A stretch of 64,000 nt of DNA. It comes from Chrysophaeum taylorii (lineage: Eukaryota; Sar; Pelagophyceae; Pelagomonadales; Pelagomonadaceae). The number at the start of each line of letters is the position of its first letter. Positions within the stretch are counted from its first letter, which is position 1. This document shows positions 836 to 59,018 of the stretch, piece by piece. The translations under genes were made by a program, and so were the position numbers. The stretch is taken from assembly GCA_029834535.1 (NCBI GenBank), contig JAQMWT010000668.1:49288-113287 (forward strand). Reading direction: 5' to 3'. Under the pieces are notes generated by a model. That model was not told the origin of the DNA. It made no database searches and was given only the letters and a program-made list of their open reading frames with translations.

Positions 836-2360
836 CTACTCTCACGGCCAGTTTTTCTCTCACAAGAGTCCAATCTCCGCAAACCCTCTGTCATGTTACT
901 TTGTTCTGGTTTGTCAACTCCGGCGTTCCTGTCTCAAGCCACTAATGACTTAGGCTTAAATATCAATGTAAAAGTTGTTGTTGAGTCTGATGATACGCTT
1001 GTTCGTATGTTACGCCACCGCTTTCCTACTGTGCTATTATTTGAATCTCTCCCCGCCTTTATTAACCATCTTCACCTAATCTCACCAGAGGAATGGCGCA
1101 CATTCTATTGTGATATAAGTGAGATCACTCCTCCCTGCACAAACAGGAATTTACTCAAACAACAAAAGTCAGAAGACTTACACAGCCTGCTGGACGATTC
1201 TCTTTTCGACAGCATGCTATCTGTCATCAAGCTACTCCAGCCCTTGGTACTACTGGCTGAGATGACGCCTCCGCATAAGTACTGTCATCAAGACCACATC
1301 ACAGTGGCCAACCTTATCTATACTACCCTTGATTACTGTGTCGATGTTGTTGATAGGTTCCCGACCTACCTATGTGGCGACTACCAATCTAGAGAAAGGT
1401 GGATATGCATCGCACGCAGATATTCTACTGGACCAATTAAACTATCATCGTGGCCCATCCTCCATCCACGCCCCTTCCTAAAGATCGTGGATGATCTACA
1501 AGCTATTCCCAAGCGCCTTTGGCTACCTAACCACATATCCAAAGACTGGATCCGGGTGTTCCCCGATCCTCCATATATATCCGTTCCTAAAACGTTTGCA
1601 CCTTACTCTCGCACAGGTTCTGCTCAGCTTACTATGACTGACCTTGAATCCCTCAATATGTTACTACTTCGCCTTCACTCACAACAGGCTCACGAGCAAC
1701 GTACTCACTCTGTTCAATCCGAGTGTACTTACCCCTCATCAACGCCTTTGGGAGCACGTATACGTTCACTGCTTCCGACATCCCCGCGACCGGGACAGGT
1801 CCATATATCTGGAGCCGTTTATGGGTTACTTGTGGATAGTCCAAGCCCTTCCCCAAGTTGGCTCCGCTACCACCTATGGCACCGCCATACAAAACCTCGT
1901 GTCCAGATGCGCTCTCGTGATGCCTGGCTGCCTTACCTACAAGGCCACCGACAACTCTTTCGATTACAAGGATTCTCTTTTTGCTCTGGAAGATCATCAC
2001 CTATCTCATAGTCGCTATATAGGGTACCTTCGTGGAAGTGACCGCAAACTCGGCTCTAAAATCCACTCAATGCTTGCTCCATTGCCAACCGTCCGAGGGT
2101 ATGCCAATATTATTTTACTCGACCCTCGCAACGGGAAATTACGCTACCCCACTCGACCGGAGTTGATTCGTGCTAACAACCACACCAAACAACAGGAATC
2201 TTTCCTCTTGTCTCTACGCCATGACCTTTGCTGTGACATGCTCAGCAATGCTCTGCCTGCCGGTACGTACAGCACTCTGTACAAGCACCTTTCGCTCATC
2301 GTCGCCGATATTAAATCCCTTATGTTGGACCCTACCTTCCAACATACTGCTGCCGTGACG
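836..2360 (+). pseudogene. DNA (cytosine-5) methyltransferase-like domain in the copia polyprotein
   Basis: The reading from 836 (first ATG at 893) shows the ordered motifs of C5-cytosine methyltransferases. Motif I is the LLCSGLSTPAFL segment at 896-931. An acidic Glu follows the next strand (VVVESDD), as in motif II. The catalytic Pro-Cys motif IV is ITPPC, with Cys at 1136-1138. Motif VI appears as LLAEMTPP, with Glu at 1259-1261. Motif VIII is GDYQSRERW at 1376-1402. After a frameshift near 1,650 the other frame carries a motif IX-like RYPTRPEL (about 2,142-2,165) and motif X LSNALPAG (2241-2264). The canonical ENV of motif VI is EMT here. The domain sits between the gag-like part and integrase. 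The frameshift and the upstream TGA indicate that this copy is dead. Family membership is judged from motif order, not from a search. Confidence 0.72.
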
Positions 2361-2939
2361 AAGAAATCCTATGTATCCAATTTCATGACCGTTGACCAAG
2401 CCTCCACCACGTGCAGCACAGATACCTTGTCTTTGGCACAATCTTTTATGATGTCTATTTCCAGCAACTGCTTGACCGAAATGTCGTTAAACTATATATC
2501 GTCGTCCTACGAAGATACTCTCGCTACTCGTGATAATGAGGATGCACCTCCAAGTGACCCTGCTGTGCACCAGGATGACGACGCACCGCCTTCCACTGCC
2601 TTAGACACCGAACTCAAGTTCGATGTTCGGCGCAAACGGCACATTCCCGCTCATCCAATTCCTCGTAAGTCCTCGCACACGGATCCACCGAATATCTCAA
2701 TGCCAAAGAACGTGCTAATCGCTTTCACCGGTGCATCACTGCCCCGACAACGTCGCTGCCAAGGCCCCCAACGTACTTGCTCGCCCTGGATTCTCTGCTT
2801 CTGACATACCATATCGCGACTTATGCACCGACTGCATCGCACACAACAAGCGCCACCCGCACAAGCATTTCAATGCGACCAAGCCTTCTTTTGAGCAAAC
2901 CACAAAGCCGGTGAAGTCTGGGCGTGCGACGGCGGCTAT
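2361..2939 (+). pseudogene. Linker and integrase zinc-binding region of the copia polyprotein, frameshifted
   Basis: One frame runs to a TGA at 2802-2804 and contains the second SLNY motif and an Asp/Pro-rich linker. The frame 2731-2943 then carries a basic segment with Cys-x-x-Cys (residues CTDC at about 2,830) followed by His and Lys, as in the H2C2 zinc-binding domain at the start of copia integrases. The catalytic core resumes in the next frame at about 2,910, so at least one frameshift lies in 2,800-2,930. Confidence 0.55.
2472..2494 (+). repeat. SLNY motif copy 2
   Basis: Reads T-E-M-S-L-N-Y in frame. It lies between the methyltransferase-like domain and integrase. Confidence 0.85.
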
Positions 2940-5900
2940 GTGACCATCCCATCCGAATGGGGAGGCTTCACACATATCATCGTCTTCAAGGAACTCATTT
3001 CGAAATTTCTCTTGGTGTACTTTACACGCACCACCAACGCCACGGAGTTCACTCAAGCTCTGGATTTTGTGTATGACTTCTGTCGTACACAACTCAATGT
3101 GCACATGCGCACCCTCTACTCCGATGCATTCAAGCCTTACTTTAGCCAGCACATTACCTCCCCGTACCGCGTCGATAAGGGCATTCAACTCATTGCCTTC
3201 CCGCCGTACATGCACCACTTTAACTTTGAAGTTGAGTCTGCCATCGGTTTCATCGCCTCCGCCTCCTCAACTCGCCTTCGTTCTCTCCTTAATGCTCACT
3301 ATCGTGGCGCCAAGATCGTGGAACCCGCTATCATGTTCCCATGGGCGGTGATACACACCGTTCAAAGCTATAACCTTCTCCCGAACGCCACGCTCGAGCG
3401 CATTCATCATGCTATTCTGAGTCCGCAACAGCTACTCTACAACCAACTCAGCACTCCCCAACACGATATGCTCAAGATTTTTGGCGCTGAATGTTACCTC
3501 CTATTGGAGCCCCATGAACACCACAAGTGGGAACCGTGCCGCCGCAAATATCTGTATCTCTGTTGCGCCAACGCACAAAACCCGCTCGTCTCCCCACGCG
3601 TCGACCATCTCGCTGACGTCGTCCTCAACCCTGAAAACGGACAGATTCGTGTTTCGTCCAAGCTGCAATTCCTCTACATGTTGCAGCATCCTACTCCTGA
3701 TCCTGAACAAGCCGCTGGTGGCAAGCTCGCCGATTTCCGCTGGGATCTTCGTCACCACTTTCTTACGTTCAAGTCTCCCGCCCTCTCCGCCCTTCATCTC
3801 CGTGGTGGTATCCTCTGGTCTGCTATCTGCTCAGAGGGGGAACATGCGCTGTTAGCTCGTCTTCTTCTCCCGTTGCGTACTGACTTACTTGCCCGCTACC
3901 CGCACGTCGATGGTTACTTCGCCCACGCCAAGTGCGCATCCAGCATCCCAGCTGCAACCTTTTTAACTGCTGATGGTTCACCTACGTGCCCTATTCCTCA
4001 GCCCCTTTTATCTGCGTTCACTGAACACGCTGCTGCCTTCGGCACTTCTTCCTTACAATATGCACTTACGTACCTGGCGCCGACCAGCTTTATTGATCAC
4101 AACTCATCCGAGTTTGGCGCTACTTCTGCATCTCTGGCTGACTTGGAGGATTACCTTCTGGTCTCTACAGAGTTTATCACCCAGGTCTTACACACCGACC
4201 CTACTATCCATATTCAACTGGAATCTGCTTCTTCTACTACTCCTACTGACGCTGTTTCCGCTTATCCCGAAGTTGCGCACACTGCCTCGACCGCAACGTC
4301 GCTAAACTATAATTCACCAGCCATTGTTGGTCCTGACGAATATAAGGTCCAAGAAGCGGACGTTTCCATTGACGAATATAAACTTAAGTGCCTCCACGGT
4401 TTGTCGCCTGAAAACAGGCACGCCTACCTCAAGGCCATCGCCAAGGAACTCCACGACATTATCCGCTTTGGCTGCTTCAAACTTTCCTTACCCGACGGTG
4501 TCTCTCGTCCTATTGACAGCAAGATGGTGCTGAAGATCAAAACAGACTCTGCAGGCAAATACGTTAAGCACAAGGCTCGCCTCGTACTACGTGGCTTCCT
4601 AGCATCTCTTGGCGCCGATTTCTTTGGTACCTTCAGCCCCATGGCCACTATGACCGCAATCCGGGTACTACTAGCTATTGCAGCATACAAGCAATTGCCT
4701 GTCTACCATGCAGACGTCCCGAACGCCTTCGTTCAGTCTGACATCGATGCCAATGTCTATGTTCAGTTACCAGACGGCATCAAGCTTATCGACCCCGATG
4801 ACGCTAAGTACAAGGGCCGACGTCTACCGAAACTGCTGAAGTCACTTTATGGACTTAGGCAATCACCATCCCTTTGGAACAAAGAGATAGACGGCTTCTT
4901 CCGTAGCCTTGGTTACAAACGCCTGCATTCGGACTCTTGCCTATATGCTCGAGTATCCGCACATGCTAAGTTCGTCGTATGCAGTCTGTCTGTAGACGAC
5001 ATTGTTATTGTGTCCAATGACGACCCTCTTCGTACTGAATTACAGGATGCCCTCCACAAACGGTATGCTGTAGAGCAGTTTGAACCTGTCCATACCCTCC
5101 TAGGCATGCGTGTGTGTCGCACATCTGACGGCTCCATTTCTCTGGATGTGCAAGCCAAGCTGGATGAACTCTTCGCTGATCACCCAGTCTTGCAGCAACT
5201 GACCCCGCTTAAATATCCTATGTCATCGTCCTTCAAGTATAAAGATGGCACTCCCAGCTCTGAAACAGAGTTGTACATCAATTCGCACTTTGCCACCCTC
5301 CTTGGCAAGCTGGTGTTCATGCAAGTTGCCTGCAGACCTGACTTCTCGCAAGCCTTGGGCAGATGTTCGCGTGGTATGCATGCACCCACGTATGTTCACG
5401 TCCAAATGCTAGAGCATTTGCTTCGCTACCTCAAGAAGCCGGAAAACCGCTCACTTCGCCTCTGGTTCCATCCTAAAGGTAATGCCATTGAAGCTCACCT
5501 TCGCACTGTCTCCGCTAATCGAATTGATCTATCCACTGTGGTCGACTACCAACCGCAGGATGTATCTACTGGACAGTTTGATCCCTTAGTTGCCATGGTT
5601 GACGCTGACAACGCCCCTTCCTTAGCACAGGAAGATAGGAAATCTACCACCGGGTTTGTCTTCTATCTTTTCAACTGCCTTATTGGTTGGAAAAGCAAAC
5701 TTCAACCGATTGTCTCCTGCTCAACTCACGAAGCTGAGTTGATTGCCCTCAGTATTTGTGCTGATGACGCGGTTTGGCTACGCAAGCTGCTGTTGGAACT
5801 TTCCTTTGTCGTCAACCCCACCTTCTACGTCAACAATGTTAATGGTGAGAACACCGCTGATCCTGTTGATTTCGATGACAATGACAACCCAATTGCGGAA

Positions 5901-6179
5901 GATATGCGCTTCATCAGAAGCCTACCTCTCTTGTCTGACAATGCTGCCGCTGTTCACACCTCTAATAACCCAGATGGGTCCTCTCGATCCAAGGCACTGT
6001 CGACTAGATGGTTTAAGATTCGTGAGTACATATCGCTTCAGAAAATACGAGTCCATCATGTTCCCGGCAAGCTGAACGTGGCGGATGGCTTTACAAAACC
6101 AATTGCTGCTGAGTTCTCCACTTTTCGTTCTCTACTCGGTATGCATCATGCCTCTCACGACAATCCTTTACAGGATTGA
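2940..6179 (+). CDS. copia integrase core, reverse transcriptase and RNase H
   Basis: This is an open frame of 1,079 residues, and the same frame continues upstream with the first catalytic Asp of integrase (W-A-C-D-G-G). The second Asp is in L-Y-S-D-A-F and the Glu in N-F-E-V-E-S. A Pro/Ser/Thr-rich linker with a SLNY motif follows. Reverse transcriptase starts at about 4,390 and shows the copia signatures HADVPNAFVQSDI, SLYGLRQSPSLWNK and the catalytic SVDDIVIVSND. RNase H has VDADNAPS, the DRKSTTGFVF block and STHEAELIALS. The frame ends with the typical copia tail HVPGKLNVADGFTKP. Length and motif order fit a full copia IN-RT-RH. This is the longest undamaged frame in the window. Confidence 0.93.
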   Translation: MTIPSEWGGFTHIIVFKELISKFLLVYFTRTTNATEFTQALDFVYDFCRTQLNVHMRTLYSDAFKPYFSQHITSPYRVDKGIQLIAFPPYMHHFNFEVESAIGFIASASSTRLRSLLNAHYRGAKIVEPAIMFPWAVIHTVQSYNLLPNATLERIHHAILSPQQLLYNQLSTPQHDMLKIFGAECYLLLEPHEHHKWEPCRRKYLYLCCANAQNPLVSPRVDHLADVVLNPENGQIRVSSKLQFLYMLQHPTPDPEQAAGGKLADFRWDLRHHFLTFKSPALSALHLRGGILWSAICSEGEHALLARLLLPLRTDLLARYPHVDGYFAHAKCASSIPAATFLTADGSPTCPIPQPLLSAFTEHAAAFGTSSLQYALTYLAPTSFIDHNSSEFGATSASLADLEDYLLVSTEFITQVLHTDPTIHIQLESASSTTPTDAVSAYPEVAHTASTATSLNYNSPAIVGPDEYKVQEADVSIDEYKLKCLHGLSPENRHAYLKAIAKELHDIIRFGCFKLSLPDGVSRPIDSKMVLKIKTDSAGKYVKHKARLVLRGFLASLGADFFGTFSPMATMTAIRVLLAIAAYKQLPVYHADVPNAFVQSDIDANVYVQLPDGIKLIDPDDAKYKGRRLPKLLKSLYGLRQSPSLWNKEIDGFFRSLGYKRLHSDSCLYARVSAHAKFVVCSLSVDDIVIVSNDDPLRTELQDALHKRYAVEQFEPVHTLLGMRVCRTSDGSISLDVQAKLDELFADHPVLQQLTPLKYPMSSSFKYKDGTPSSETELYINSHFATLLGKLVFMQVACRPDFSQALGRCSRGMHAPTYVHVQMLEHLLRYLKKPENRSLRLWFHPKGNAIEAHLRTVSANRIDLSTVVDYQPQDVSTGQFDPLVAMVDADNAPSLAQEDRKSTTGFVFYLFNCLIGWKSKLQPIVSCSTHEAELIALSICADDAVWLRKLLLELSFVVNPTFYVNNVNGENTADPVDFDDNDNPIAEDMRFIRSLPLLSDNAAAVHTSNNPDGSSRSKALSTRWFKIREYISLQKIRVHHVPGKLNVADGFTKPIAAEFSTFRSLLGMHHASHDNPLQD
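4287..4309 (+). repeat. SLNY motif copy 3
   Basis: Reads T-A-T-S-L-N-Y in frame, between integrase and reverse transcriptase. The Leu codon is CTA instead of TTA. Confidence 0.85.
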
Positions 6180-18075: not shown

Positions 18076-18159
18076 ACTCGATTTTACAAAGCCGGGTTCT
18101 TGAAGTTCTTAATTTTACATCGTAATGGTTCGAAAATGGGCTATAGACAAAAACAAGTA

Positions 18160-27965: not shown

Positions 27966-28150
27966 CTGCTAAGAGGGGGGGTGTTTGTCTTTAAATGTCG
28001 ACTGCTAAGAGGGGTGTGTGTGTGGGGCATGTTTGTCTTTAAATGTCGACTGCTAAGAGGGGGGGGTGTGTGGGGAGCATGAAGGATGTGGGTGGGTTTG
28101 TGGGGTATGAGGGATGTGCCTGACGGGCGGAGATAAGTACGCGGGACCAT
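27966..28150 (-). repeat. LINE-like repeat, three truncated copies (e)
   Basis: Successive 3' ends of the LINE-like repeat (GTCTTTAAATGTCGACTGC) near 27,985, 28,030 and later, followed by a slightly longer copy. Confidence 0.7.
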
Positions 28151-29475: not shown

Positions 29476-29807
29476 ACAACCCCCTCTTAGCAGTCGACAT
29501 TTAAAGACAAACAGGCCGGGCTCGCTGTGCCCTCACCGCCCTCACCCATGTCGCCGCCTCGGGGAACCCCACCCAGGCCGCCCGATCCCAGCAGGACGTC
29601 ACCATTCGTCGCACATACGTCCGGCGGCAGCATGCGTACGACCTCCGGGCGGGGCCCGTCCTCTCTTCGCCTGCCCCACGACTCGGCAATGACCCCGACT
29701 AGGTCCCGCATACTTATCTCCGCCCGTCAGGCACATCCCTCCTACCCCACAAACCCACCCACATCCTTCATGCTCCCCACGCACACCCCCCTCTTAGCAG
29801 TCGACAT
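29476..29807 (+). pseudogene. LINE-like repeat, copy f
   Basis: A short truncated 3' end is followed by a longer copy of the C-terminal region. The stop and tail run directly into a long (AAAC)n array. Confidence 0.75.
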
Positions 29808-30202
29808 TCAAAGACAAACAAACAAACAAACAAACAAACAAACAACCAAACCAACAAAACAAACAAACAAACAAACAAACAAACAAACAAACAAACAAAC
29901 AAACAAACAAACAAACAAACAAACAAACAAACAAACAAACAAACAAACAAACAAACAAACAAACAAACAAACAAACAAACAAACAAACAAACAAACAAAC
30001 CAACCAAACAAACAAACCAACCAAACAAACAAAACAAACAAACAAACAAACAAACAAACCAACCAACAAACCAACCAAACAAACAAACCCAACCAAACAA
30101 ACCCAACCAAACAAACAAAACAAACAAACAAACAAACAAAAAAACAAACAAACAAACAAACCAACCAACAAACCAATCAAACAAACAAAACAAACAAACA
30201 AA
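29808..30202 (+). repeat. (AAAC)n microsatellite, about 395 bp
   Basis: Almost pure AAAC units with scattered AACC and AAAAC variants. It extends the tail of the LINE-like copy f and ends at a Z block (30,203-30,225). The open frames read from it on both strands are artefacts. Confidence 0.95.
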
Positions 30203-30458: not shown

Positions 30459-31307
30459 TGTGGCAGGGGAAACGGCAACTGACCACGCTCAGGGGTGTTT
30501 CGCCGACACGCCGGGGACCTCCAAGCACGAGGTCGGCGCTAGGCTAGGGGTCGGCCGTCCGTCGCCACTCACAACTCGCTCGCCATGCCTCTCAACTCGA
30601 GGCTGGGAGTTGGTTTATGATAAAGATACTCGTGATAAAGAAAAGTAAGTAACGCAATGTCAATGAAAAGGACTGACGTCGCCAAGGCAGCTGGCATCTA
30701 CGTCAGAGTGACGGGAGTAGGGTAAGCCCTATGAAGTAGGGTAAGCCTTAAGTAGCGGTAGTTCCCGCCACAGGACTCCCCCAGTGAGATTGCGAGCTGC
30801 CCACAGCGAGCGCCTCTTAAGGCGCAGCGCGAGCCATCGCATCTTGAGCATCTCGGAGACGGATGAGCTGTACACTCGCTTGACGACAGGGTCAGGAACC
30901 CGTTCGCTGCGAAGCGTGAACTTGGGGACCAACACATCGATCTCGTGCGGAGAAAAGGCAGTGACACAAGGAGTAGTATGTTTGGTCAGCTTGGACCTAT
31001 CGGTGAAACTTCGACCGTCGACATCCGTATATTCTGGCTTAAGCTTGCGGGTAGAGATGAGAAGTAGGCTTAAAGTACGAAACTTTGTCTTGCGGCCAAA
31101 GATCAGAGTAGAAGTGTAGAGCAACACGGTCATTTGCATTATCATAAGGCTCATAAACTTCGGCGACATATATTTTCTTGCGCCAATTGGACTTTTTGTG
31201 ATCCGGAATCCGGAAAACAACGAACTTACCAGGTTTGTAGTCATCTCGGACAGTTTTTTTCGGCTTGGGAACTGCGCGATCGACGATCGGAGGGACCATA
31301 ACAGGTA
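30459..31307 (-). mobile_element. Ty3/gypsy fragment G2a: 3' LTR and integrase C-terminus
   Basis: The LTR is 30,459-30,772 (314 bp; read on - it begins TGTGGCGGG and ends CTGCCACA). Upstream lies the integrase tail with KFVVFRIPDHKKSNWRKK and HEIDVLVPKFTLRS. The copy is interrupted at 31,307 by the LTR of G2b. Confidence 0.85.
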
Positions 31308-31639
31308 TGGAGGCACAGAAAAAAAAAAACACTCCCGACCCCTGGATGTTAAGGGGGGTACTCACCGACTCGCCCTAGACCTCACTGAACGAGGCAAACA
31401 CGGACTCGGGGTCGGATATGCTCGCCACACACATTGCTCACGCTCACCAAGCCTCTCAACAAGATGGAGGAATGTTATATGATAGCAAGAATGCTTCAAG
31501 AATGCTGCAAGATACGCTTCTCACGAGGGAGAGGTATGATGTCACTAGGGAAGTAGGAAAAGGCGTCCCGTTGAACGGGTATCAAGCCTCGAGAAGGGAG
31601 GGTAAGCCTTAGCAGTCAGGAGTTGCCGCCACAGGACTC

Positions 31640-33600
31640 CCCTGGTGAGAATACGAGCTGCCCTCCGCGAGTCCGGCGAGAATCACGAGCCTTGGCTGAA
31701 TGAGCATCTCGGGAACGAATCTTCTTGTATACGCGTTCAACGACAGGTTCGGGAACGCGTCCACTACGCAAAGTGAACTTAGGAATCAACACACCGATCT
31801 CATGCGGGGCGAAGTCGGTGACACAAGGAGTGGTACTGTTGTTGACCTTGGACTTGTCGGTGAAACTGCGACCGTCCACGTCCTTGTATTCCGGCTTAAG
31901 CTTGCGAGTATAGAGATGTGAGGTAGGCTTGTAATAAGAAACCTTGTCATGGGGACCGAGATCAGCATAAAAATGCAGAGCGACTCGATCATTCACAAAA
32001 TCATAGGCCTCGTAAACTTCAGCTAAGTAAATCTTCTTTCGCCAATCGGACCGTTTGTTATCGGGAATCCGAAAGACAACGAACTTACCGTGCTTGTAAT
32101 CATCCCGGAAGGTCTCATTGGGCTTGGGCACGGCTCGATCGACCTCTGGAGAAACCATCACGGGGGTGATCTGACTGACATGAACACTTCGGCGTTCGGG
32201 AGGAGAATCAAGAGACTCGATCCTGTAAGTGACCGGAGACAAGGGTTCCAGAATAACGAATGGACCGCACCATTCCGGTCGAAGCTTGTTATGAAGAAAA
32301 GGGATGTAGAGCAGAACATGTGAACCTTCTTCATACTCCACATCGACATGGCCCGCATTGTAAGCGAGACGCTGTTTACAAGAGCCTTCTCGCGAGCTTC
32401 ATTCACCGTAGCGGTGTAGAATTTAAACCTCTCGCGAATGTCTGCCACAACATCGGAGCGAGTTTTCGGCAGGCGGCGGACATCAAGATCCATGATCGTA
32501 TAATCTGTTGGCAATAGAGGCTGCCGGTTGAGACGAAGCATGAAAGGTGAGATCTGAGTTCCCGGAATAAACTTGCGATTGTAGCAAAAAGCAATGTACT
32601 TCGCGAACTCTGGCCAGTCCGTGATCTTGCGGTTTTGAAGACACGCGCGGAGGAAGCCTTGATAAAGCGGTTGACCCTTTCCGCAGGATTAGCCTGAGCA
32701 TGATACGGAATCGAGGTACTATACCGAACATTGAAGAGATGACAAAACTCTTCCGTCAATCTGTTGACGAACTCTTTCCCGTTGTCGGTGCGAATCCTCT
32801 GAGGTATATGACCTTTGAGTATAATATATATAATAATTTATTCGCGACAAAAGCCTCGAGGATTGACTCAGCAGTCTTATGGTGTAGTACGTCGAGAATC
32901 AAGAAATGAGAAAATGGATCAAAAAAGATGATCAAATATGTATCGGGACCAGCACTCGGCAAAGGTCCGAACAAATCCATACAATGGACGGCGCAATCAC
33001 CATCATACACCGGATGCTGAAGAAGACCTGCTCTCTTTGGTTCAGGCGTGCGAGCTTTCTTGCACACTATGCAACCAGCAATATAAGCACCCACCTCATT
33101 AGACATGTGGGGCCACCAAAAACGTTCAAGTATCGACTGCACTGTACTTTGACGGCCCATGTGACCACCATCGAGAGGTGTGTCATGGTACAATCGGATG
33201 ATGCGCGTCCGTTAAGTTCGGGGTGCGACTATCATCGGGTGCAAGTCAGGTGCGGCACGGTAGAGAGCTCCTTTCACCACTTGATAGCGATATTTGGCTC
33301 CGTACCGACGAAGAGAATGGGCTTGAGCCATGCGATAACGAATGTCCTCGCAAGTAGCATCAGTGATCTGCTCTTTGGCTATCTCTTCCAAAGTCAAATT
33401 ATCCGGGATCTTGTCGATGTACTCTTGGTAATCATCGGCATCACGGAAAATACTAGGTTGGGTCTGCAGACGCTGCTTCTGACGTTGTCTCGTAGCATGA
33501 GACGTGACCAATTGCATCGGATCGTCGAGACCCTCTTCTTCTTCCTCCACAGGCAACTCCGTCGTAACAAACGACAGAATGACATGGCACCCAGGTAAAG
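31640..33600 (-). pseudogene. Gypsy integrase (G2b)
   Basis: Four overlapping frames cover the whole integrase. The zinc-binding segment contains LYHDTPLNGG-type His and the AGCIVCKKA Cys pair. The core has CMDLFGP, an Asp-containing segment disrupted by an insertion near 32,820-32,840, and PAERVNR. The GPY/F region has LRPEWCGPFVI. The C-terminal module has KFVVFRIPDNKRSDWRKK, then ALHFYADLGPHDKVSYYKP, then HEIGVLIPKFTLRS. Frame changes near 32,390, 32,760 and 33,210 disable it. Confidence 0.88.
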
Positions 33601-34220
33601 GTACTCCTTCATCATCGACAGGGCGAGGCAGTTCTTTGCACGCTAGATGCGCGTGGTTCAAGGGCCCACCAAACTCATCCGTCTCGATGACATGATCTAT
33701 AGGATTGCGAGAGAGACAGTCAGGGATACTCATCCCCGGCGACTTTCCTGGTTTGTAACCCAATTCAGGATCGAAATTGGCGAGCCGCATCGCCCATCGA
33801 GCCAACTGCCCATACGAGTGCTTCGCCTTTCGCAAAAAAGTCAAGTTGCGATGATCCGTCTCAAGGATCGTCTTGTGACCTTCGATATAAGAGCGGAAAT
33901 GCTCAAGAGAAAGAATAACGGCCAGTTGCTCTAGCCGGCGAGGCTCATAGTTCCGCATCTCTTTCGGCACAGCTCTGCTCCAATACTCAATCACTCGTTC
34001 CTCTCGTGTCACCTTGCCGGTTTCGTCCTTGACTTCCACGAGCTGAAAAAGATACGCGCCCAGACCATCCTTGGAAGCATCCGAGCGGATCTGAAAAGGA
34101 AGATCGTAGTCAGGATGATAAGCTCGGCGAGAGTCCACAAAAGCTTCAATGGTCGTGTTCCACGCCTTTTGGCACTCAGGCGTCCACTCAAACTTAACAT
34201 CTTAAAGACACAGCCGCCTC
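33600..34220 (-). pseudogene. Gypsy RNase H and connection (G2b)
   Basis: The frame 33,212-34,138 holds RNase H with FQIRSDASKDGLGAYLFQ, EYWSRAVPKEMRNYEPRRLE, the ETDHRNLTFLR core and NPIDHVIETDEFG. It connects in frame with the start of integrase. Confidence 0.88.
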
Positions 34221-34272
34221 GGCGGCTCAACAATCTTCGGATAATTCTTCACATATCGGCGGCCATAGTTGC

Positions 34273-35625
34273 TCATGCCGAATAGTTGCTCATGCCGATG
34301 AAAGATCGAATCTGGGTCTTCGGGGACGTGTTCGGCAACGCACCGGGAATAGGCATCTGCTGCAACGCTTCTAACGTCTTGGGATTCGGCTTCAAGCCTT
34401 CCGGAATCGAAATGTGTCCCATAAACTCGATTTCATATTTGAGGAGGTGGAACTTCGAAGTTCGTCCACTATATCCTCGCTGCGCTAAATGGCACAGCAC
34501 TTCAATCAAGACTTGCAAAAGACGGTGGAGTTCATCCGATCTCATCATAATATCGTCGACAAACGCGACCGAGTCCTTATACATCCGTGTGGACAAATCG
34601 CTAGCCATCTGCTTACAGAAGAGAGCTCCTGCTGTTTTCACTCCCAGAGGCAAGCGCGAAAAACCATGGGCTCCAAGTGGACTAACCATCGTAACGGCGT
34701 CCTGAGCGGCGGCGTCCAAACGTAGGTTATGATAACCCCATCGAATATCAATGCACGTCCGCCAACGGCGCATGGCAAGAAAAGCCAAATCATCATCTTG
34801 ACGAATATTCGGCCAACTGTCATTGACCAGCTGATCATTGAGCTGACGCAAATCAACTGCAGCACGAAAAGCATTCGACGTTCCGGCCACTGCTCCCTTC
34901 TTAGGCAGCATCAGCACCGGGAATCCCCACGGAGAGTTCGCCGGTCGGATGACTCCATCGCGACACCACTCGGTGATCAGCTTTCTGAGACACTCGAGCT
35001 TTGCTGGCGTCAACCTATAAGGCGTCATCTTGATCGGACGTGGGTTTGCGTCTTTAAATCGTAGAGAAACCGGTGGCGAGTCCACGGGTCTCATAATCGG
35101 ATCAAAAAAGGTCCACGCGTATTGCACGCAGTGGCTCAACATCATCTTCGCATCCTCAGCCAGATGCGGGTTGTCGGGAATTCCCTGTTCTCGAACAACC
35201 TTCTCGACTTCTTCCTTCGTCGGAGTTGCGACTTTCGTCGCCACATTGTCCTTGACGTGCTCCGGAGTCTGCGGTAACGGTGCACCGTCCGCGTCGCGCG
35301 GCGCATCCTTCCGTGGCACATCGAACTTTTTATCGTATTTGAACCTCACCTTAGGGTGGCTCTTATTGATCTTTTCACCTTTGACACGCACATTCGGCTC
35401 GCTCCTTACTTTCGGCTCCTGTTCAGGTTCAGGATCCAGGGGAACGTCCACTTTTGATGGTCGGGGGGGGTGGGCAGCAGAAATAGCACGAGCCGTCCCC
35501 GGCGCATCTGTTGGAGGCGGAAGCATAGGGGCTTCTGGCGGTTCCCATTTGGTGGGATCCTGGTGATCATCTTTTGACACCCACTTAACGACACGAGTAC
35601 GCGTATTTAACAGCGGAATCTGCAC
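34273..35625 (-). CDS. Gypsy reverse transcriptase (G2b)
   Basis: A 450-residue frame. It contains an acidic/basic linker, then RT motifs: RPIKMTPYRLTPAKLE, DGVIRPANSPWGFPVLMLPK, AVDLRQLNDQLVNDSWPN, CIDIRWGYHNLRLD, and the catalytic FVDDIMMRSDEL with two Asp. RT finger, palm and thumb motifs follow, up to GMSNYSA. It is open throughout, but its downstream junction to RNase H is broken. Confidence 0.92.
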   Translation of the reverse strand: MQIPLLNTRTRVVKWVSKDDHQDPTKWEPPEAPMLPPPTDAPGTARAISAAHPPRPSKVDVPLDPEPEQEPKVRSEPNVRVKGEKINKSHPKVRFKYDKKFDVPRKDAPRDADGAPLPQTPEHVKDNVATKVATPTKEEVEKVVREQGIPDNPHLAEDAKMMLSHCVQYAWTFFDPIMRPVDSPPVSLRFKDANPRPIKMTPYRLTPAKLECLRKLITEWCRDGVIRPANSPWGFPVLMLPKKGAVAGTSNAFRAAVDLRQLNDQLVNDSWPNIRQDDDLAFLAMRRWRTCIDIRWGYHNLRLDAAAQDAVTMVSPLGAHGFSRLPLGVKTAGALFCKQMASDLSTRMYKDSVAFVDDIMMRSDELHRLLQVLIEVLCHLAQRGYSGRTSKFHLLKYEIEFMGHISIPEGLKPNPKTLEALQQMPIPGALPNTSPKTQIRSFIGMSNYSA

Positions 35626-35649
35626 GTGACGAAGGGTGGTGTCGGCAAT

Positions 35650-36600
35650 TCACAAATACTGCTCAAAGGATCGATCTGTCGGGCTCAACGCGGTCGGCAG
35701 GACTTCGCGACTTTGGCGGAAACCTTTGGTCACGGAGTTGTGCAGATCGACTGCTAAAATAGCAAGAGTGTCTGGAGGGACAACAGACGCTAAGTGCTTG
35801 AACGAATCTGTCTTAGACAAGCCAGCCCAATCACGGTCCAGCGGCATCGTGAGCAACTCGGCCGTCATCTCGAGAGTCAAAGGCTGAGTGTCCGAGCGGT
35901 GCGGTCCCAAGCGAAGAGGAACTCGCGTAACCGTGTAAGCCGTATCTGTTGCTTCTCGGGACGAGCCTATATTATTCAGCTGGAGCAGGTGGCGTTCATC
36001 AGCGTAACCTAAAGGTGCAGCAAATTTGTGTTGCGTATTCGCACATGTCTTCGGAGCCTCTTGCAGGTGCAGTGGGTGACTGGAAACCAACAATCGCACG
36101 CGAGAGCTCATCAAAGTGGGCGTTATATCATGAAAATTGACGACGCACACGTAAGGGTGTAAGCGCGCTATGTAAGAAATAATGGGCGCCTCCTGTTCGA
36201 TCGGCCAGATCATGAAGCCAGTCATTTTGCACAGCTTCATCGTCCAATTAGTGGCCGTAACTCCCCTGCCAACATCTCTGGATGTCTAGTTGCAGAGTGC
36301 TGAATGAACGCAGGGTGGAGACGCGATACACATCGACGATGACCATTCCGCTTCAGGCAAATAAGCCTTGATCAATCGGAGGGTCGTGTCATATCGTCCG
36401 CAGAGCGTGTGCTGGAGCACAGGTATCTTCGGAAAACTCTTCCGATGAATCTTGTTGGCAGCTGTTGAAGAGTCAAGAGCAAGGACGACTCGAAACGACG
36501 TCCCGCACAACTCATTCGCTCGTTGCAGTCCTGAAGTACTGCCTCCGGCGCCGCTAAAGAGCATCACAACCTTGCGATACGTGATCGGCCGCCAGTGGAC
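35650..36600 (-). pseudogene. DNA (cytosine-5) methyltransferase-like domain in gypsy polyprotein
   Basis: Read on -, one frame interrupted by a single TAG (36,286-36,288) shows C5-methyltransferase motifs in order. Motif I is MLFSGAGGSTSGL at about 36,565-36,525. A second strand, VVLALDSS, follows. Motif IV, IASPPC, has its catalytic Cys at 36,310-36,312. A motif VI-like Glu is in WPIEQEAPI. Motif VIII is SSRVRLLV at about 36,105. Motif IX is PLTLEMTAELLTMP at about 35,880. Motif X is VVPPDTLAILAVDLH at about 35,784. The domain lies between the protease-linker and RT. The region of the TAG and EQE instead of ENV are deviations. The overall architecture is convincing, though not confirmed by a search. 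Confidence 0.8.
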
Positions 36601-37803
36601 TTTTCCAAACCTTCGGCGAATCTCGCCTTGTAACTTCTCGGCACTTCTTTTCCTCCTCGTCGGTTCGTCGGTCGAAAGCGTCGTTACCGAGCGATTCTTG
36701 ACGAGAATTCTTATCCTGACCGGCAGAAGGAGACACCTTCTGCACCGAGCTCAAAAGCATCGGTTCGGGAGCCGCATCGCCTCGAGTCAGATGGCTTGCG
36801 ACCGACACAGTGAACGATAGGTTAGCCTTGTCTGATTCGGCTTCACCACCCTTCGTTAGTTCGTCGACCGTTTCAACATTTAGCTCGTCATCAAAACAAA
36901 CAATATCTCCCAAAGCGAGAATTTCACCTCGAGTAATCACGGTCGGCACATCCTGGGTAGAGGAGATCGCCACTCGAGCTGCGAACTTGTCGTGATCCTC
37001 AGGAGAAGAACACATTCCATCGACTACCCCAAGTTGCTCGTATCCAGAAGGCGTAGCAACGAAAGCTTGCCCGGTTTCCGTGGGCTCTGAAAGAGCGACT
37101 GGCACGCAGTAAGTGCGCCCAGGTTCGACCTTCATCGTGCGCGCAGAATATGCTACCACTTCATAGGCATCGCTGTTCAAACTTTGCGAAGGCGTAACTG
37201 TAGGGACTCCCCGAGTCGCCGAAGCTGCCGCTCGTTTCGGCGGTGGACGCTGGAGGTCTTCGATCTTGCACAAGCGAGCGTAAACGCGGTTCTCGACTGT
37301 GCTCAGGCTCTTTTGCATCGCATGGTGCTGTTGCCCATAAACCTGAACTACAACGGGGTTGCGCTCATCATAAGTTGTTCTGAACGCCAAAATCGGAGAA
37401 TCGACTCGTCGATCCTGCACCTTTAACTTCTTGCCCGTAAGCGACTTGTGTGCGGAGAAACGCAATGCGATTTCGCGGGTAGTCCACCATGGCCCCCAAC
37501 ACCCGAATATCGCGCGCTCCCAGCGGAAATAGGTGATTAGTATCGGCCACAATGGCAACCACTGGAACTGCGTCGTCACGTCGTCCGCGAGCGCAATTCT
37601 TAATGCGACCCATTTGTGGATAGTCGTCTTATTCAATCCTGACCCGTACAGGGTGCGCTCGACTGGGAGATCGCCTCGGTCAAGGATTATATTATCCTTT
37701 GCCAGTTTTTCGACTATCCCACGACAAATATAGGAGACATCAGCCATTCCATCAACGCTAAAGTCGTTGCGAACTTCGGCCCGTCTCGTCGTCTGTAAAT
37801 AGA
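36554..37803 (-). CDS. Gypsy aspartic protease-like domain and beta-rich linker (G2b)
   Basis: The 5' part of this frame has VDGMADVSYI where retropepsins have the D-[ST]-G-A active site. A conserved middle follows, then LGARDIRVLGAMVDY, typical of the second half of gypsy proteases. Asp is kept but the residues after it are G-M-A, not S/T-G-A. A second module (PGRTYCVPVAL to TRGEILALGDIV) resembles beta-rich domains that follow proteases in some gypsy elements. Its end overlaps the methyltransferase-like domain in another frame. Confidence 0.65.
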
Positions 37804-37923
37804 TCACAATAAAAAACACTGTGCCTCTGGTGGAGAATGGTGGCAGTGGTAGTGCTGCCTTTCGTCCTGTCCTCTAACGACACAAAGAGCAGCACGGTGT
37901 CCGACACAGCGATTTGGGGTTGT

Positions 37924-38520
37924 TTAGTGTGAGTGTGTGGTAAGGGGGCGGGGGGGGGGTCCTAACCCTAAATTGAATTTTCTATCTCTACGCCTTCGCA
38001 GATTGAGCTCGGTGATGAGCGAAATCTGGAGTTTCCTTAGGTCCGCATAGTGCTCAGCGTGCGGAAAGAGTTGTTGCGCACGGGTGCGCATTATATCGTT
38101 AATTTCGCAGGTGACCACGACAGTAAGGTGTTTGTCGGATCGTTTGCGAAAAGTGTCGAAACCTTCCTGATGAAGTCCACCTGCAAAAATGGCTGTTTTG
38201 AGCGGAGGGGGTTGTGTTTGCACAGAGAGGTCCGCGGAGCCATTGAAGGCGTAGTAGACGACAGTATGTTGGAGGTTGAGCAGCTCAGTTAAATACAGGG
38301 AATGATTCTGTGACTTGGCGAAATCAAGCGTGTGCGATTTAAAGCGTGTCTTGGCGACATGCTGTGTGATGTGTGCAATCTCATCCTCGAGTGACGTTCG
38401 TTTTCTTGTGTGGAAACTGAGCACAGTTGTGAATGTTTGCTTTGGATGGGACGGCAGGGACAACAGGCCGTTAGGTTTGCGAGTGGCGAGTACGACGGCG
38501 GTTTTCCTATGAGAGTCTTA
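37924..38520 (-). pseudogene. E2 ORF with truncated cytosine methyltransferase-like N-terminus
   Basis: The frame continues the protease ORF after a frameshift near 38,500. Residues about 88-145 contain AIFAGGLHQEGFDTF (motif I-like), VVVTCEIND with an acidic Glu (motif II-like), and FPHAEHYADLRKL (motif III-like Asp). These are the first three motifs of C5 methyltransferases in order. The frame then runs into the presumed 3' LTR, so catalytic motif IV is absent. The match is weaker than in the gypsy and copia elements. Confidence 0.5.
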
Positions 38521-39080
38521 TAATCGTGCGGATCGAAGGTTGAGGACTTCAGAAGTTCGTACAGATATGGCTCGTGGGGCAGTGGCGGATCGGTGGCTTG
38601 TACATGCAGAGCTTTTAGCTGAGATGTTGCGATAACTTGAAGACCTTGCCTGAATTGCGGGACGACCATAAATACGAGATACATAGCGCAACCGGTTGTG
38701 TCTTTTGTATCCTTGGAGGAGAGACCTGCAGCCTGCAAATACAACGGTTTAACACCGATGAAGTGGCTGGTAAGGGTGCCTCGTCCCATATGAATGGTGT
38801 GTTCGGGAATCCGGCGTATGGACTCAGGAACAAAGTTTTGTATTGTGCGCGTAAAGCAAAAAGATGCGCCACCGTCAATCAATGAGGTTTCAGTGCCGGG
38901 TCCATTGCATCCGTGCAGCGAGTTAGTCTTCTTTGAGGTCTTTCCTGGAGTGTAAGTTGCACAAAGAAAATCTGCGACTCTGGGTGAGATGGTTGATGAG
39001 GTCGGGAAATTCGTCATCTTGAGGTTTGGTGCCGGATGGAGTAAGATGTGGTTGGCGCCACAGGCGTCGTCGGCAACCAT
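38289..39080 (-). CDS. E2 protease ORF
   Basis: Starts at the ATG that overlaps the stop of the upstream ORF (TGATG). An active-site-like SLIDGGASFCF lies near residue 70; D-G-G-A is a plausible variant of the retropepsin D-[ST]-G-A. The sequence remains natural to about 38,500, where the frame shifts into the methyltransferase-like fragment. The C-terminal 70 residues of the listed frame are then probably off-frame. Confidence 0.6.
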   Translation of the reverse strand: MVADDACGANHILLHPAPNLKMTNFPTSSTISPRVADFLCATYTPGKTSKKTNSLHGCNGPGTETSLIDGGASFCFTRTIQNFVPESIRRIPEHTIHMGRGTLTSHFIGVKPLYLQAAGLSSKDTKDTTGCAMYLVFMVVPQFRQGLQVIATSQLKALHVQATDPPLPHEPYLYELLKSSTFDPHDYKTLIGKPPSYSPLANLTACCPCRPIQSKHSQLCSVSTQENERHSRMRLHTSHSMSPRHALNRTRLISPSHRIIPCI

Positions 39081-40297
39081 CAGCGAAAAAGTCGACTCTG
39101 GGGGAGAGCACGCATATAGTCACTGTGACGTTGTGCGTAGTCTTCGGCGGAGTCATCTTCATCATTGATTTCGGGAATGGTGTCGTCGTAGAGGTCTAGC
39201 TGACCGTTGTCGTCATAGAAACCGAGGTGTCCTTTTTCGGCTAGTTCATCGGTTTCGGCTCCGCCCTCATCAGGTGGATCGTCCTGGGGATCGGACGTTA
39301 ACATCTGGAGGAATTCTGCGGCATCGTTTTCGGCTTCGGAGAGAAGTATCTCGTCGGAGCTGGTGGTGATGAGGTTGATTAGCTTCTTCATGCGCTCGGA
39401 GCTGGACGTATGTTGGCGACCGGCTTGGCTAAGATTCCGTATGGTTTGGAGCTTGCGACGGACTTCACGAAGGGGGACCTTGAAGCGTTGGTCAGGAGTA
39501 TATGGTTTGGGTAGATGAGGTTGTGTGGGGAAGGTGGCCTTGCGAAGATGCGGGTGCTCGCGTTTGTCAGGGGTGACAGGAGTAGCACGGGGACGTTGCT
39601 TGTTCTTCGGTGGGGTGACATGGGTGGCCTTTGGCTTGAGACTGTCATTGGTGTCGTAGTAAGACGGGGAGCGAGGACGTGGAGGCTTTTTGTTAGGAGG
39701 GGGCTTCTTGGGGTGCCGCGAAATTTGCTTTTTGCGGTAGGCGTGGAGTTGGTGAATGAGGTCATTGTCTTCGTCGTGGTCAAGATGGGCCTCCGTGAGA
39801 AAAACAGCGACGGGGTCGGTGTCTTCATCGGGGTCCGGCGGGGTGTCGTCTTCAGAGGGAGAGGTGTCGTCATCGTCGTCGGTGAGGTGGAGACCATGAC
39901 GGCGGGAGCGAAAACGGGGGTTGTCTTTGTCCTTTGTTGGCAGACGACCAAAGTCAGTGACGAAGCGCAAAGGCTTGAAGTTGAGAGTTGGGTGAGGCTC
40001 GAGGTGAGCCCAAAAGTTGTGCTCAAACGTGGAGATCACGGTGATGCGAGCGATGAGCTTAGGAAGGTGGTGGATGGCTTCCTTGTCTTCGTCGAGTAAC
40101 AGCGAGTCGTTGGGAGTGCGCAGACAGTTAGCAAGACGCGCGAAGCCCTTGATGTGTGTTGGGGCGCGGGAGTCAAGTAAACTTGGAGGGTACTTAAAGC
40201 GAAGCATTTGGTGGATTTCCTCGAGAATCTTATCGTCGGGAAGTTGGAGAGCAGCATCGGTTGTTATCTGGCGCTGTTGCTGCTGGACATGGCGCAT
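39080..40297 (-). CDS. E2 405-residue ORF, Gag C-terminal or accessory
   Basis: An intact frame with a mixed helical N-terminal third, an Asp/Glu-rich block, a long Lys/Pro/Arg-rich block (nucleic-acid binding in character) and an acidic C-terminus. Its stop overlaps the start of the protease ORF (TGATG). No zinc knuckle is visible. Position suggests a nucleocapsid-like role. Confidence 0.55.
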   Translation of the reverse strand: MRHVQQQQRQITTDAALQLPDDKILEEIHQMLRFKYPPSLLDSRAPTHIKGFARLANCLRTPNDSLLLDEDKEAIHHLPKLIARITVISTFEHNFWAHLEPHPTLNFKPLRFVTDFGRLPTKDKDNPRFRSRRHGLHLTDDDDDTSPSEDDTPPDPDEDTDPVAVFLTEAHLDHDEDNDLIHQLHAYRKKQISRHPKKPPPNKKPPRPRSPSYYDTNDSLKPKATHVTPPKNKQRPRATPVTPDKREHPHLRKATFPTQPHLPKPYTPDQRFKVPLREVRRKLQTIRNLSQAGRQHTSSSERMKKLINLITTSSDEILLSEAENDAAEFLQMLTSDPQDDPPDEGGAETDELAEKGHLGFYDDNGQLDLYDDTIPEINDEDDSAEDYAQRHSDYMRALPQSRLFR

Positions 40298-40450
40298 GTA
40301 GTCAATGTAGTGAGCAGGCTCATGTATTTATGGGTTGAACCGCGTGTCCATAAAGGCATTATAGACGTAATGCGCATGGTGGACGTGGTTCTGGCCCGTG
40401 TGCTTGTCGAGTGCTAGGCGAACTTGAAGCACAAATTCGAGTCCTATCCG

Positions 40451-41245
40451 TTAGGAAGATCCGAGTGCATCGACTTCGTCGTATGCTGGGTTCTCGACGG
40501 AGTCGCTACCGGCATGTAGGAAACGGCGAAAGAGAGGGTGCACGGTCTCGCGGAGATATACGATGAAGTCGGCTTCTTTTCCTAGGAGGTGAGCTTGGGT
40601 GATCGGATATAACTTGCCTTTTGTCATATCGGTCGGGTCCTTGTCTTTATCTTTAAGTTCTTGGGGCTTTGGCTCGTAGACGTTCTCCAGGAAGTGCTTG
40701 CCGAACTTGCGGTAGACACCCTTGTGTTAGACGTAACGGCCTTGGAAATCTTGCGTGTTCCCGGCGGTAGAGTGGTGGTCGGGGTCCCTGTCGTATTCGT
40801 CGATGCAGTGGCTTAGGAGAGTATCAGCGAGATCATTAGATCCGCGCAAGACGGATTCCCACGTGTAGAAGGCTTGTAGGAAATACTGAGCTATGCCTGT
40901 TTCAGGCATCAGATGTTCGACGAACAACTGCATGACACGAAACGAAAGCATTCGGGGTGTGACTTGAGCCGAGTCCATTGACTCGAGGACGGCGCTAGGT
41001 GGGTCACTAAATGTGTTAACTTTATTCTTGGGATCGTGTTGAGCCGGAGTGGGAGGCGGAGCCGCAGCAGCAACGGCAGGTGGTGGTGCTTGCGTTGCTT
41101 GCACTTGGGCGGTCAACGCGCTGAATTGAGCATTGAATTGTGCCATCAAGCGAGTTCCTTGGTCTTGCATCTCCTTTTGATGCCTTGCTTCTAAGCGAGC
41201 TTCTTGTTCTCGCATCTCCTTTCGGAGTTCTTGAGTGGTTGGCAT
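40451..41245 (-). pseudogene. E2 Gag, one in-frame stop
   Basis: From the ATG at 41,243-41,245 the protein has a coiled-coil Gln/Glu/Arg-rich N-terminus (ELRKEMREQEARLEARHQKE), a Pro/Ala linker and a helical capsid-like region. A TAA at 40,727-40,729 interrupts the frame, which continues naturally to the TAA at 40,451-40,453. Just upstream on -, at 41,290-41,345, is a probable leader with GGTATCAGCAGAGCC, possibly a tRNA primer site. Confidence 0.65.
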
Positions 41246-41525
41246 TTTGCTAGGGTTCAGGAACGTCAGTGAGCGGGACTCGTCTGGAAATCCCGAGGCT
41301 CTGCTGATACCGGGACTGGTGCCCAATACCTAGAGAACAGTAATCACAACTGTGTTACCCTTCAGCAGAGCGTGAGAACAGTGGTAGTCTGTCCTCGAAT
41401 CTGTCTCCTAAACGAGGACAGCCGGTGTGAATAACACAGCGTTTTCTTAAATCAAAAGGTGGCAAAGTTAAGGGAACTAACCCTAGGATAGGGGGTACTA
41501 ACCCTAATTCGGATTTTCTATCTCT

Positions 41526-41760
41526 ACTGACATCACCTCATTGTGTACGTCGTCCTCGTCGCCCTCGTCGTCACGCACTCAACCGTTGTCCCCGACGGAC
41601 TTGGCTCGTTTCCTCGCGGCTGGTAGCGGCTGGAAGAAGGCCCTTCGAGCCCCTGCAGCGTCGCCGTTGCTTCAGCTACCCGCTGCTCCTCAGCACGCTT
41701 GTCGCGTTCAAGCTCTTCGTTGGTACGGCGCTTTCGCTGCTGAATGTTCCCTCCCCTAAG
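41526..41760 (-). pseudogene. Charged coding fragment
   Basis: On - a natural-looking frame encodes a Glu/Arg-rich helical segment (RKRRTNEELERDKRAEEQ) followed by a Ser/Thr-rich tail. Boundaries and family are unknown. Confidence 0.3.
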
Positions 41761-57930: not shown

Positions 57931-58417
57931 GTGGGGTTGGAATGGCTGATGTTTCTTATATTTTGTCGTGGGATGGTTTGAAAAACTGGAAAAGGATAGA
58001 AATCCTTGACCGGGGCGATCTTCCAGTCGAGCGCACTTTGTATGGATCAGGATTGAACAAAACGACTATCCACCAAGGGTTGCATTGCGGATTGCGCTGC
58101 GGACGACGTTTGCCGTTCAGTTGTTGCTATTGGCCGATACTAATCATCTATTTTTGCTGGGAGCGCGCGATATTCGGGTGTTTGGAGCCATAGTGGATTA
58201 CCCGCGGAATCGCATTGCGTTTCTACGCACACAAGTCGCTTACGGGCGCAAGAAGTTAAAGGTGCAGGATCGACGAGTAGATTCTCCGATTTTGACGTTC
58301 AGAACAACTTATGACGAGAGCAATCCCGTGGTAGTTCAGGTTCATGGACAACAGCACCATGCGATGCAACAGAGCCTGAGCACAGTTGAGAACCGAGTCT
58401 ACGCTCGCTTGTGCAAG
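57931..58417 (+). pseudogene. Gypsy protease-like region (G3)
   Basis: Homologous to the G2b protease: GMADVSYI, LDRGDLPVERTLYGSGLNKT, then GARDIRVFGAIVDYPRNR. A frameshift near 58,150 separates two parts. Confidence 0.75.
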
Positions 58418-59018
58418 ATGGCTGGCTTCATGATGTGGCTGATTGAACAGGAGGCGTCCATTATTTCGGATATAGCGCGCTTACACCCTTACGTGTACGT
58501 CGTCAATTTTCATGATATCACACCTACTCTGATGAGCTCTCGCGTGCGATTGTTGGTTTCCAGTCACCCACTGCACTTGCAAGAGGCTCCGAAGACATGT
58601 GTGAACATGCAACAAAAATTTGCTGCAGCTTTAGGTTATGCTCATGAACGCCACCCTCTCCAGCTGAATAATCTTGGCGTCCCGAGAAGCAACAGATACG
58701 GCTTACACCGTTACGCGGGTCCTCTTCGTTTGGGACCGCATCGCTCGGACACTCCGCCTTTGACTCTCAGATGACGGCCGATTGCTCACGATGCCGGTGG
58801 ATCATGATTGGCCTAGCTTGTCTAGAAGATTCGTTCAGCATTTAGCGTCTGTCGTCCTCCAGATAACTCTTGCGATTTTAGCAGTCGATCTGCACAACTC
58901 CGTGACCAGAGGTTTCCGCCAAAGTGGTGAAGTCCTGCCGACCGCGTTGAGCCCGACAGATCGATCCTTTGAGCAGTATTTACGAATCTCCGACACCACC
59001 TTTCGTTTCGTCACGTAG
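58418..59018 (+). pseudogene. C-terminal half of the methyltransferase-like domain (G3)
   Basis: Contains the motif VI-like WLIEQEASI, SSRVRLLVSS (motif VIII), a target-recognition region, PPLTL and LTMPVDHDW (motif IX region, with a frame change near 58,775) and LAILAVDLHNSV (motif X region). The N-terminal half with motifs I to IV is absent: the protease frame joins directly to this segment at 58,409-58,420. Confidence 0.72.

Follow-up and report, generated by a model that had tools for sequence, protein, structure and literature searches.

The window, meaning the whole 64,000-nucleotide stretch of Chrysophaeum taylorii DNA that was analyzed, contains a defunct copy of a Ty3/Gypsy element that belongs to a large family and carries a C5-cytosine methyltransferase (C5-MTase)-like domain between a protease-like region and the reverse transcriptase (RT). 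The element and a second copy of its MTase domain are laid out below, with the evidence for each assignment in parentheses.

31497..37813, minus strand: Ty3/Gypsy remnant, 5' truncated, with several frame breaks (DNA identity to family copies L041 and L042)
36557..37873, minus strand: protease-like region and linker frame, upstream of the MTase domain and in a different frame from it (open frame; protease by eye)
35653..36630, minus strand: C5-cytosine-methyltransferase-like domain, with a TAG inside it at 36286-36288 (Pfam match of the N-terminal half; tblastn)
34276..35649, minus strand: reverse transcriptase, Gypsy type (RVT_1, E value of 2.8e-10)
33215..34201, minus strand: RNase H (RT_RNaseH, E value of 1.2e-26)
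32759..33211, minus strand: integrase zinc-binding part (Integrase_H2C2, E value of 5e-16)
31619..32398, minus strand: integrase C-terminal part (Integrase_p58_C, E value of 1.6e-6)
58406..58982, plus strand: another, incomplete copy of the Gypsy MTase domain (85% and 73% identity in two segments, L041 as tblastn query)

At the DNA level, the remnant is approximately 92% identical to L041 (over 31497-32806 and 32834-37813) and approximately 76% identical to L042 (over 31592-37064). Its RT, RNase H, and integrase, as recognized by Pfam, follow one another in the Ty3/Gypsy order, and the same order is found in L042. A Pfam scan of the frame at 36557-37873 gave no match. Neither gag nor a recognizable 5' end or 5' long terminal repeat (LTR) was found for the window remnant, and no repeat pair was detected within the L041 and L042 stretches, both of which may stop short of the ends of the element.

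When open MTase domains of the family were used as tblastn queries, the interval 35653-36630 was covered, with 91% (L041) and 78% (L042) identity; an earlier note on this DNA had placed the domain at 35650-36600, which was right to within approximately 30 bases. The TAG at 36286-36288 falls after motif IV and before the proposed motif VI in the MTase frame, and a TGA at 35650-35652 divides this frame from the RT frame (34273-35649). Because of the TAG, this second stop, and the location of the protease-like region in another frame, the window copy is a dead remnant in which the enzyme is broken.

Other sequences lie around the element. Just downstream (30726-31305, minus strand) is another 3' end from this kind of Gypsy element; it has diverged and is 75 to 76% identical to L042 and L041. 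Direct and inverted repeats cluster at 25000-30200 and 45500-47100, the longest inverted pair in the scanned region (25000-48000) being 358 bases long and 94% complementary, and a long array in an 8-base register is found at approximately 29750-30200. Amid repeats, at 16702-18108 on the minus strand, there is a probable host gene for a protein kinase (Pkinase, E value of 2e-51).

A divergent C5-MTase-like domain

The six C5-MTase motifs that the earlier note had read from the sequence are all present on the minus strand, in order and in a single frame of the window copy that is interrupted by the one TAG. They are distributed as follows.

36541..36564, minus strand: motif I, SAM binding, MLFSGAGG (profile alignment; motif reading)
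36310..36327, minus strand: motif IV, IASPPC, with the putative catalytic Cys (motif level, without significance of its own)
36190..36201, minus strand: proposed motif VI, IEQE, with the putative catalytic Glu (spacing; EQE instead of ENV)
36088..36141, minus strand: motifs VII/VIII, VNFHDI ... SSRVRLL, the latter at 36088-36108 (motif level only)
35770..35883, minus strand: motifs IX and X, PLTLEMTAELL at 35851-35883 and SVVPPD at 35770-35787 (profile alignment)

Motifs I and II, which make up the SAM site, read FSGAGG and LALD. Conservation of the putative catalytic residues was assessed in 23 distinct family copies that had been selected as open, one duplicate having been dropped (L031 and L053 are the same place). 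SPPC is retained in 20 of these copies, as it is in the window copy, and LIEQE is retained in 22; the Glu of LIEQE fits the expected spacing, but the Asn of ENV is replaced by Gln, and a global profile alignment puts motif VI at VVNF rather than at LIEQE. In hhalign, the motif VII/VIII stretch VNFYDITPSLM lines up with the corresponding part of host Dnmt2. The domain further departs from the family pattern in having SPPCV for PPCQ and a short interval between motifs VIII and IX. Motifs IV, VI, and VIII are motif-level assignments, recognizable by eye only and not significant alone.

The earlier note had proposed a hidden Markov model search against the C5 family, and the outcome was divided: open copies pass the PF00145 cutoff, the window copy falls under it, and the Pfam matches of the Gypsy domain reach motifs I to III only. 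The N-terminal half of the window copy matched DNA_methylase with a subthreshold E value of 0.017, and its C-terminal half gave no Pfam match. PF00145 matched all three open copies scanned (best E value, 4e-6), including the L042 domain (E value, 5.4e-6; 26.5 bits against a cutoff of 22). Scores obtained inside the entire polyprotein frames were weaker, at 22.6 bits for L041 and 21.0 bits, just under the cutoff, for L042. Two scanned copies also matched the NCBIfam dcm model (E value, 0.0013), with a score of 18.5 bits that is far under its cutoff of 100.65.

The domain was also compared profile to profile. The C5-MTase profile was built from ten sequences, all found by similarity to C5-MTases: host Dnmt2, two frames without annotation, and seven coding sequences from plasmids or phages, of which six carry the annotation DNA methyltransferase and one is labeled hypothetical. 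An alignment of eight Gypsy copies scored 62.3 against this profile (E value, 3e-8; probability, 95) over 48 columns spanning motifs I to III, a score that none of 40 column shuffles reached (best, 22.9). The part of the domain after motif III aligned best at motifs IX and X and scored 24.5, compared with a best null score of 20.1 (0 of 40 as high); the corresponding hhalign probability was 3.8, and the E value was 0.011. Both scores exceed those of the shuffles; the two ends of the domain thus match in the expected order, the N-terminal one strongly and the C-terminal one weakly.

Comparison with individual methyltransferases showed a short likeness to Dnmt2. In hhalign, the Gypsy domain gave no match to host Dnmt5 but aligned with host Dnmt2 over 132 columns (E value, 2.5e-4; probability, 43), and this alignment paired motif I with motif I and motif IV with motif IV. 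A search of PDB sequences with the Gypsy profile returned three matches at E values of up to 1, of which two were Dnmt2-type chains (E values, 0.13 to 0.14) and the third was unrelated; no Dnmt3 chain was among them. An AlphaFold model, for which the input was only three near-identical sequences, had a mean pLDDT of 32.8. No relative of the domain was found in a large protein database at an E value of 1e-3, where a word-based first step limits the reach of the search, or in the viral contigs scanned. A scan of bacterial and archaeal sequences with host Dnmt2, which reaches close relatives only, also returned none. These searches thus speak neither for nor against a viral or bacterial donor.

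Taken together, the Pfam, profile-profile, and shuffle results bear out the organization that had been suggested for this Gypsy element, and sequence comparison confirms that it carries a divergent C5-cytosine-methyltransferase-like domain between the protease-like region and RT.

Family size and selection on the Gypsy domain

The genome searched comprises 70.8 Mb in 697 contigs. At least 150 matches were obtained with the C-terminal half of the window domain (150 of 842 candidates scored) and at least 150 with the N-terminal half (150 of 810 candidates scored), and the 328-amino-acid domain of L042 gave at least 122 (122 of 1040 candidates scored). No internal stop is present in 98 of the 122 listed domain matches, not all of which span the whole domain. 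One frame of L042 continues without a stop for 1760 amino acids, beginning in gag-like sequence, crossing the MTase, and reaching into RT.

The family contains at least two subfamilies, which are approximately 81% identical in the MTase domain. Between subfamilies, the MTase has a mean dN of 0.121, a dS of 2.1, and a dN/dS of 0.058 (range, 0.040 to 0.076; 90 pairs from 10 by 9 copies), a ratio that is rough because the dS is saturated; within subfamilies, the ratios are 0.15 and 0.24. The between-subfamily dN is 0.51 for the gag-like part and 0.28 for the protease and linker (L041 compared with L042), and it is 0.078 and 0.063 for RT (window and L037 copies compared with L042). Among the four parts compared, the MTase (dN, 0.12) is second best kept, behind RT. 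Since its dN is nearer to that of RT than to that of the protease/linker or gag, we conclude that the MTase domain has been under purifying selection.

Copia elements with MTase or MTase-like domains

Two further elements in the window bear on the question of which retrotransposons carry such domains.

38029..41527, minus strand: Copia-1 5' fragment, cut inside its own C5-MTase, with the MTase part at 38011-38202 (DNA identity to L025)
836..6176, plus strand: Copia-2 element, with an MTase-like stretch (836-1516) upstream of integrase and RT (RVT_2, E value of 7.9e-42 in 2895-6176)

A PF00145 search of the genome gave at least 57 matches (123 of 474 candidates scored), two of which look cellular. 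Eighteen of the remaining 55 were read, and all 18 are of one MTase sequence type, that of Copia-1. In L025, the one copy of this type that was scanned for other domains, the frame contains DNA_methylase (E value, 1.1e-7) and RVT_2 (E value, 1.6e-38), with rve under the cutoff. The window fragment, which starts approximately 0.2 kb beyond the 5' boundary of the Gypsy remnant, is 91% identical to L025 in DNA over 38029-41038, and its MTase piece is 86% identical.

The PCQ motif and the EN of ENV are invariant in eight aligned copies of the Copia-1 MTase, which matched the ten-sequence profile over motifs II to VIII (E value, 1.6e-8); motif I, which reads IIAGGLH, lies outside the match. No match was found between this domain and host Dnmt2 or Dnmt5, and its best PDB match had an E value of 0.87. 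The dN/dS was 0.08 to 0.15 in 19 of 21 pairs (seven copies), and the other two pairs gave 0.23 and 0.30. At 0.11, compared with approximately 0.12 and 0.16 for its neighbors in the frame, the Copia-1 MTase is kept equally well as they are, not better.

Copia-2 is a probable further carrier. Its MTase-like stretch scored 34.1 against the DNMT profile (probability, 40; E value, 2.9e-4), compared with a best of 23.9 in 40 shuffles, and the family has at least 150 genome matches (150 of 962 candidates scored). A Pfam scan of 836-2008 gave no match. We grade the assignment as no more than probable, because the C-terminal frame did not rise beyond chance against the profile (33 of 40 shuffles were equally high). 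Comparisons among the carriers did not establish a common origin: the Gypsy and Copia-1 domains gave an hhalign E value of 0.079, and the best alignments of Copia-1 with Copia-2 were in register but were equaled by 17 of 40 and 15 of 40 shuffles.

Host genome and host methyltransferases

Two cellular C5-MTases were identified. L009 is host Dnmt2 (E value of 4e-39 to chain 1g55_A), and L010, on contig C621, is a host DNMT5 with an SNF2 domain in an open frame of nearly 2000 amino acids (E value of 8e-143 to chain 7r76_A). No Dnmt1 or Dnmt3 was recognized among the PF00145 matches (123 of 474 candidates scored, 37 matches unread). DNMT5 is known from work in Cryptococcus to maintain methylation rather than to start it. 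In Aureococcus, which is also a pelagophyte, DNMT5 is associated with heavy linker methylation (PMC9998398).

No CpG depletion was observed in the window or in the copies, and C-to-T change at CpG was 1.1- to 1.45-fold that at other sites in six of seven comparisons and 0.7-fold in the other. This slight excess, together with the absence of depletion, gives little sign of past methylation of these DNAs.

The earlier note had considered a red-algal host, which is ruled out by the absence of phycobilisome components and by the light-harvesting family. No phycobiliprotein or phycobilisome-linker match was found in the genome (plastid genes may lie outside the assembly), the light-harvesting family has 84 genome matches, and the best solved relatives of a light-harvesting exon are labeled VCPI-6, PCPI-8, and FCP8, the sources of which we take to be secondary-plastid algae. 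The host is a pelagophyte. On contigs C88 and C539, light-harvesting matches of near-equal score recur every 1.2 kb or so, in the manner of a tandem array. Ketosynthase matches number 45 in the genome, and the frames that contain them reach 5775 amino acids; contigs C546, C557, and C407 have frames of 5518 to 5775 amino acids with several ketosynthase matches each, resembling multimodular polyketide synthases, and many polyketide synthase genes have been described in the C. taylorii genome (PMC10366177).

DISCUSSION

In this study, a broken Gypsy copy led to a family in which a C5-MTase-like domain is present in open frames and under purifying selection, which raises the question of what the domain would do for the element. 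The reading that we favor, with middling confidence, is that the Pol-borne domain is packaged with RT and methylates element cDNA, with host DNMT5 keeping the mark. The enzymes encoded by Pol in LTR elements are carried in the particle together with RT; because this domain is translated within Gag-Pol, it would most likely be packaged with RT as well. It can be envisioned that the enzyme would then methylate the new double-stranded cDNA, before or at integration, and that the maintenance-type DNMT5 of the host would preserve the cDNA-derived mark. The element may gain cDNA that resembles methylated host DNA or that is shielded from editing or degradation, and the price may be faster silencing. 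Methylation of cDNA has been proposed by de Mendoza et al. (PMC5890265), who report de novo CG methylation by retrotransposon DNMTs in yeast, though not by the SymbioLINE enzyme that was tested (PMC5890265).

A clearly less likely alternative is that the domain is a Dnmt2-type RNA methyltransferase that acts on the tRNA primer or on element RNA and thereby protects that RNA or tunes reverse transcription. Retroelements prime with tRNA. Two of the three PDB matches are of the Dnmt2 type, and host Dnmt2 matches the domain (E value, 2.5e-4) where Dnmt5 does not; furthermore, an RNA role was raised by de Mendoza et al. for SymbioLINE-Dnmt (PMC5890265). However, the likeness is short and weak and could reflect a common motif I, and the mixed profile, composed mostly of phage and plasmid C5-MTases, matches more strongly. 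In addition, CFT, a signature specific to Dnmt2, was not seen by eye in the Gypsy domain.

We attach the same low probability to the loss of catalysis, with the domain retained as a SAM- or nucleic-acid-binding part, or as a structural part, of Pol. The substitution of EQE for ENV and of SPPCV for PPCQ, the short stretch between motifs VIII and IX, and the open copies that lack SPPC (3 of 23) or LIEQE (1 of 23) are all compatible with this explanation. Against it stand the low dN and the persistence of the putative catalytic residues among 23 distinct copies, with the Cys motif present in 20 and the Glu in 22.

A broader proposal, which we consider doubtful, is that two or three LTR families (one Gypsy and one or two Copia) supply de novo 5-methylcytosine, to cDNA first and possibly to the host genome, and that the host copies the marks. 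Its setting is a host whose sole DNA-type methyltransferase detected here (123 of 474 candidates scored) is the maintenance-type DNMT5. It is more improbable that the host genome, and not cDNA, is the target of the enzyme, which would mark chromatin near insertions, restrain the element, or steer its integration. The hundreds of matches and the presence of a host DNMT5 that could maintain the mark would suit such a role, as would the DNMT5-linked linker methylation of Aureococcus (PMC9998398); however, nothing in the data indicates chromatin over cDNA, and the position of the domain in Pol favors the particle. Finally, chance likeness or an assembly artifact is extremely improbable. The Pfam match of the window copy itself is subthreshold, and strong similarity is restricted to motifs I to III; however, the family gives at least 150 matches spread over many contigs, two separate parts of the domain each outscore all 40 shuffles, and Copia-1 shows the same association (E value, 1.1e-7).

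Cytosine methylation is commonly deployed by hosts to hold transposons in check. The occurrence of ochrophyte Gypsy and Copia carriers beside the dinoflagellate and charophyte cases suggests that a methyltransferase has repeatedly been useful to the element itself, and the reason for this usefulness becomes testable. Moreover, the divergent enzyme is barely seen by domain searches, and similar elements may be overlooked elsewhere.

The association had been flagged in the earlier note as possibly undescribed should the host be a red alga. Its kind is known, from a Klebsormidium Gypsy element (PMC5890265); what holds of the claim is novelty in lineage and detail. Since DNMT-bearing retrotransposons have been found in dinoflagellates and Klebsormidium, what appears to be new is the lineage, the divergent enzyme, the Copia carriers, and the presence of several such families in one genome. 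In the literature surveyed, mainly titles and the openings of abstracts and few subscription papers, there was no stramenopile C5-MTase retrotransposon, no genome with both Gypsy and Copia carriers, and no Copia-borne C5-MTase apart from a mention in PMC12344493. That article (2025) mentions DNMT3 in LTR Copia and in DIRS elements and gives de Mendoza et al. as the source; we read the Copia mention as a slip, since the cited work describes Gypsy, DIRS, and LINE carriers (PMC5890265), but it is still a prior mention. The C. taylorii genome paper does not use the word "retrotransposon" in its main text (PMC10366177).

Several known systems resemble the one described here to different degrees. 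Host DNMT5 (L010) and DNMT2 (L009) belong to the same C5-MTase family, but they are cellular genes with strong matches to solved chains. Among ochrophytes, the Sola transposons of Ectocarpus, with ParB and an N4C/N6A methyltransferase, likewise combine a transposon with a DNA methyltransferase (PMC12477816); however, Sola is a DNA transposon, the methyltransferase is a separate gene, and it is predicted to be of the N4-cytosine/N6-adenine type rather than the C5 type found here (PMC12477816). SymbioDIRS-Dnmt3 and SymbioLINE-Dnmt of Symbiodinium are, like the elements reported here, high-copy-number retrotransposons with C5-MTases, and the SymbioLINE enzymes form an orphan lineage, as does the enzyme here (PMC5890265). 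The Symbiodinium carriers are DIRS and LINE elements, whereas those of C. taylorii are Gypsy and Copia elements, and the Copia elements of Symbiodinium are described in that paper as being without any DNMT domain (PMC5890265). The closest counterpart is KnitGypsy-Dnmt3 of Klebsormidium nitens, which is also a Gypsy LTR element with an intronless C5-MTase in its Pol polyprotein that is under purifying selection (PMC5890265). KnitGypsy-Dnmt3 has a DIRS-like repeat arrangement (PMC5890265). Unlike the Gypsy family of C. taylorii, which has a domain too divergent to be assigned to a clade and a pelagophyte host, it carries a Dnmt3-related enzyme in a charophyte (PMC5890265).
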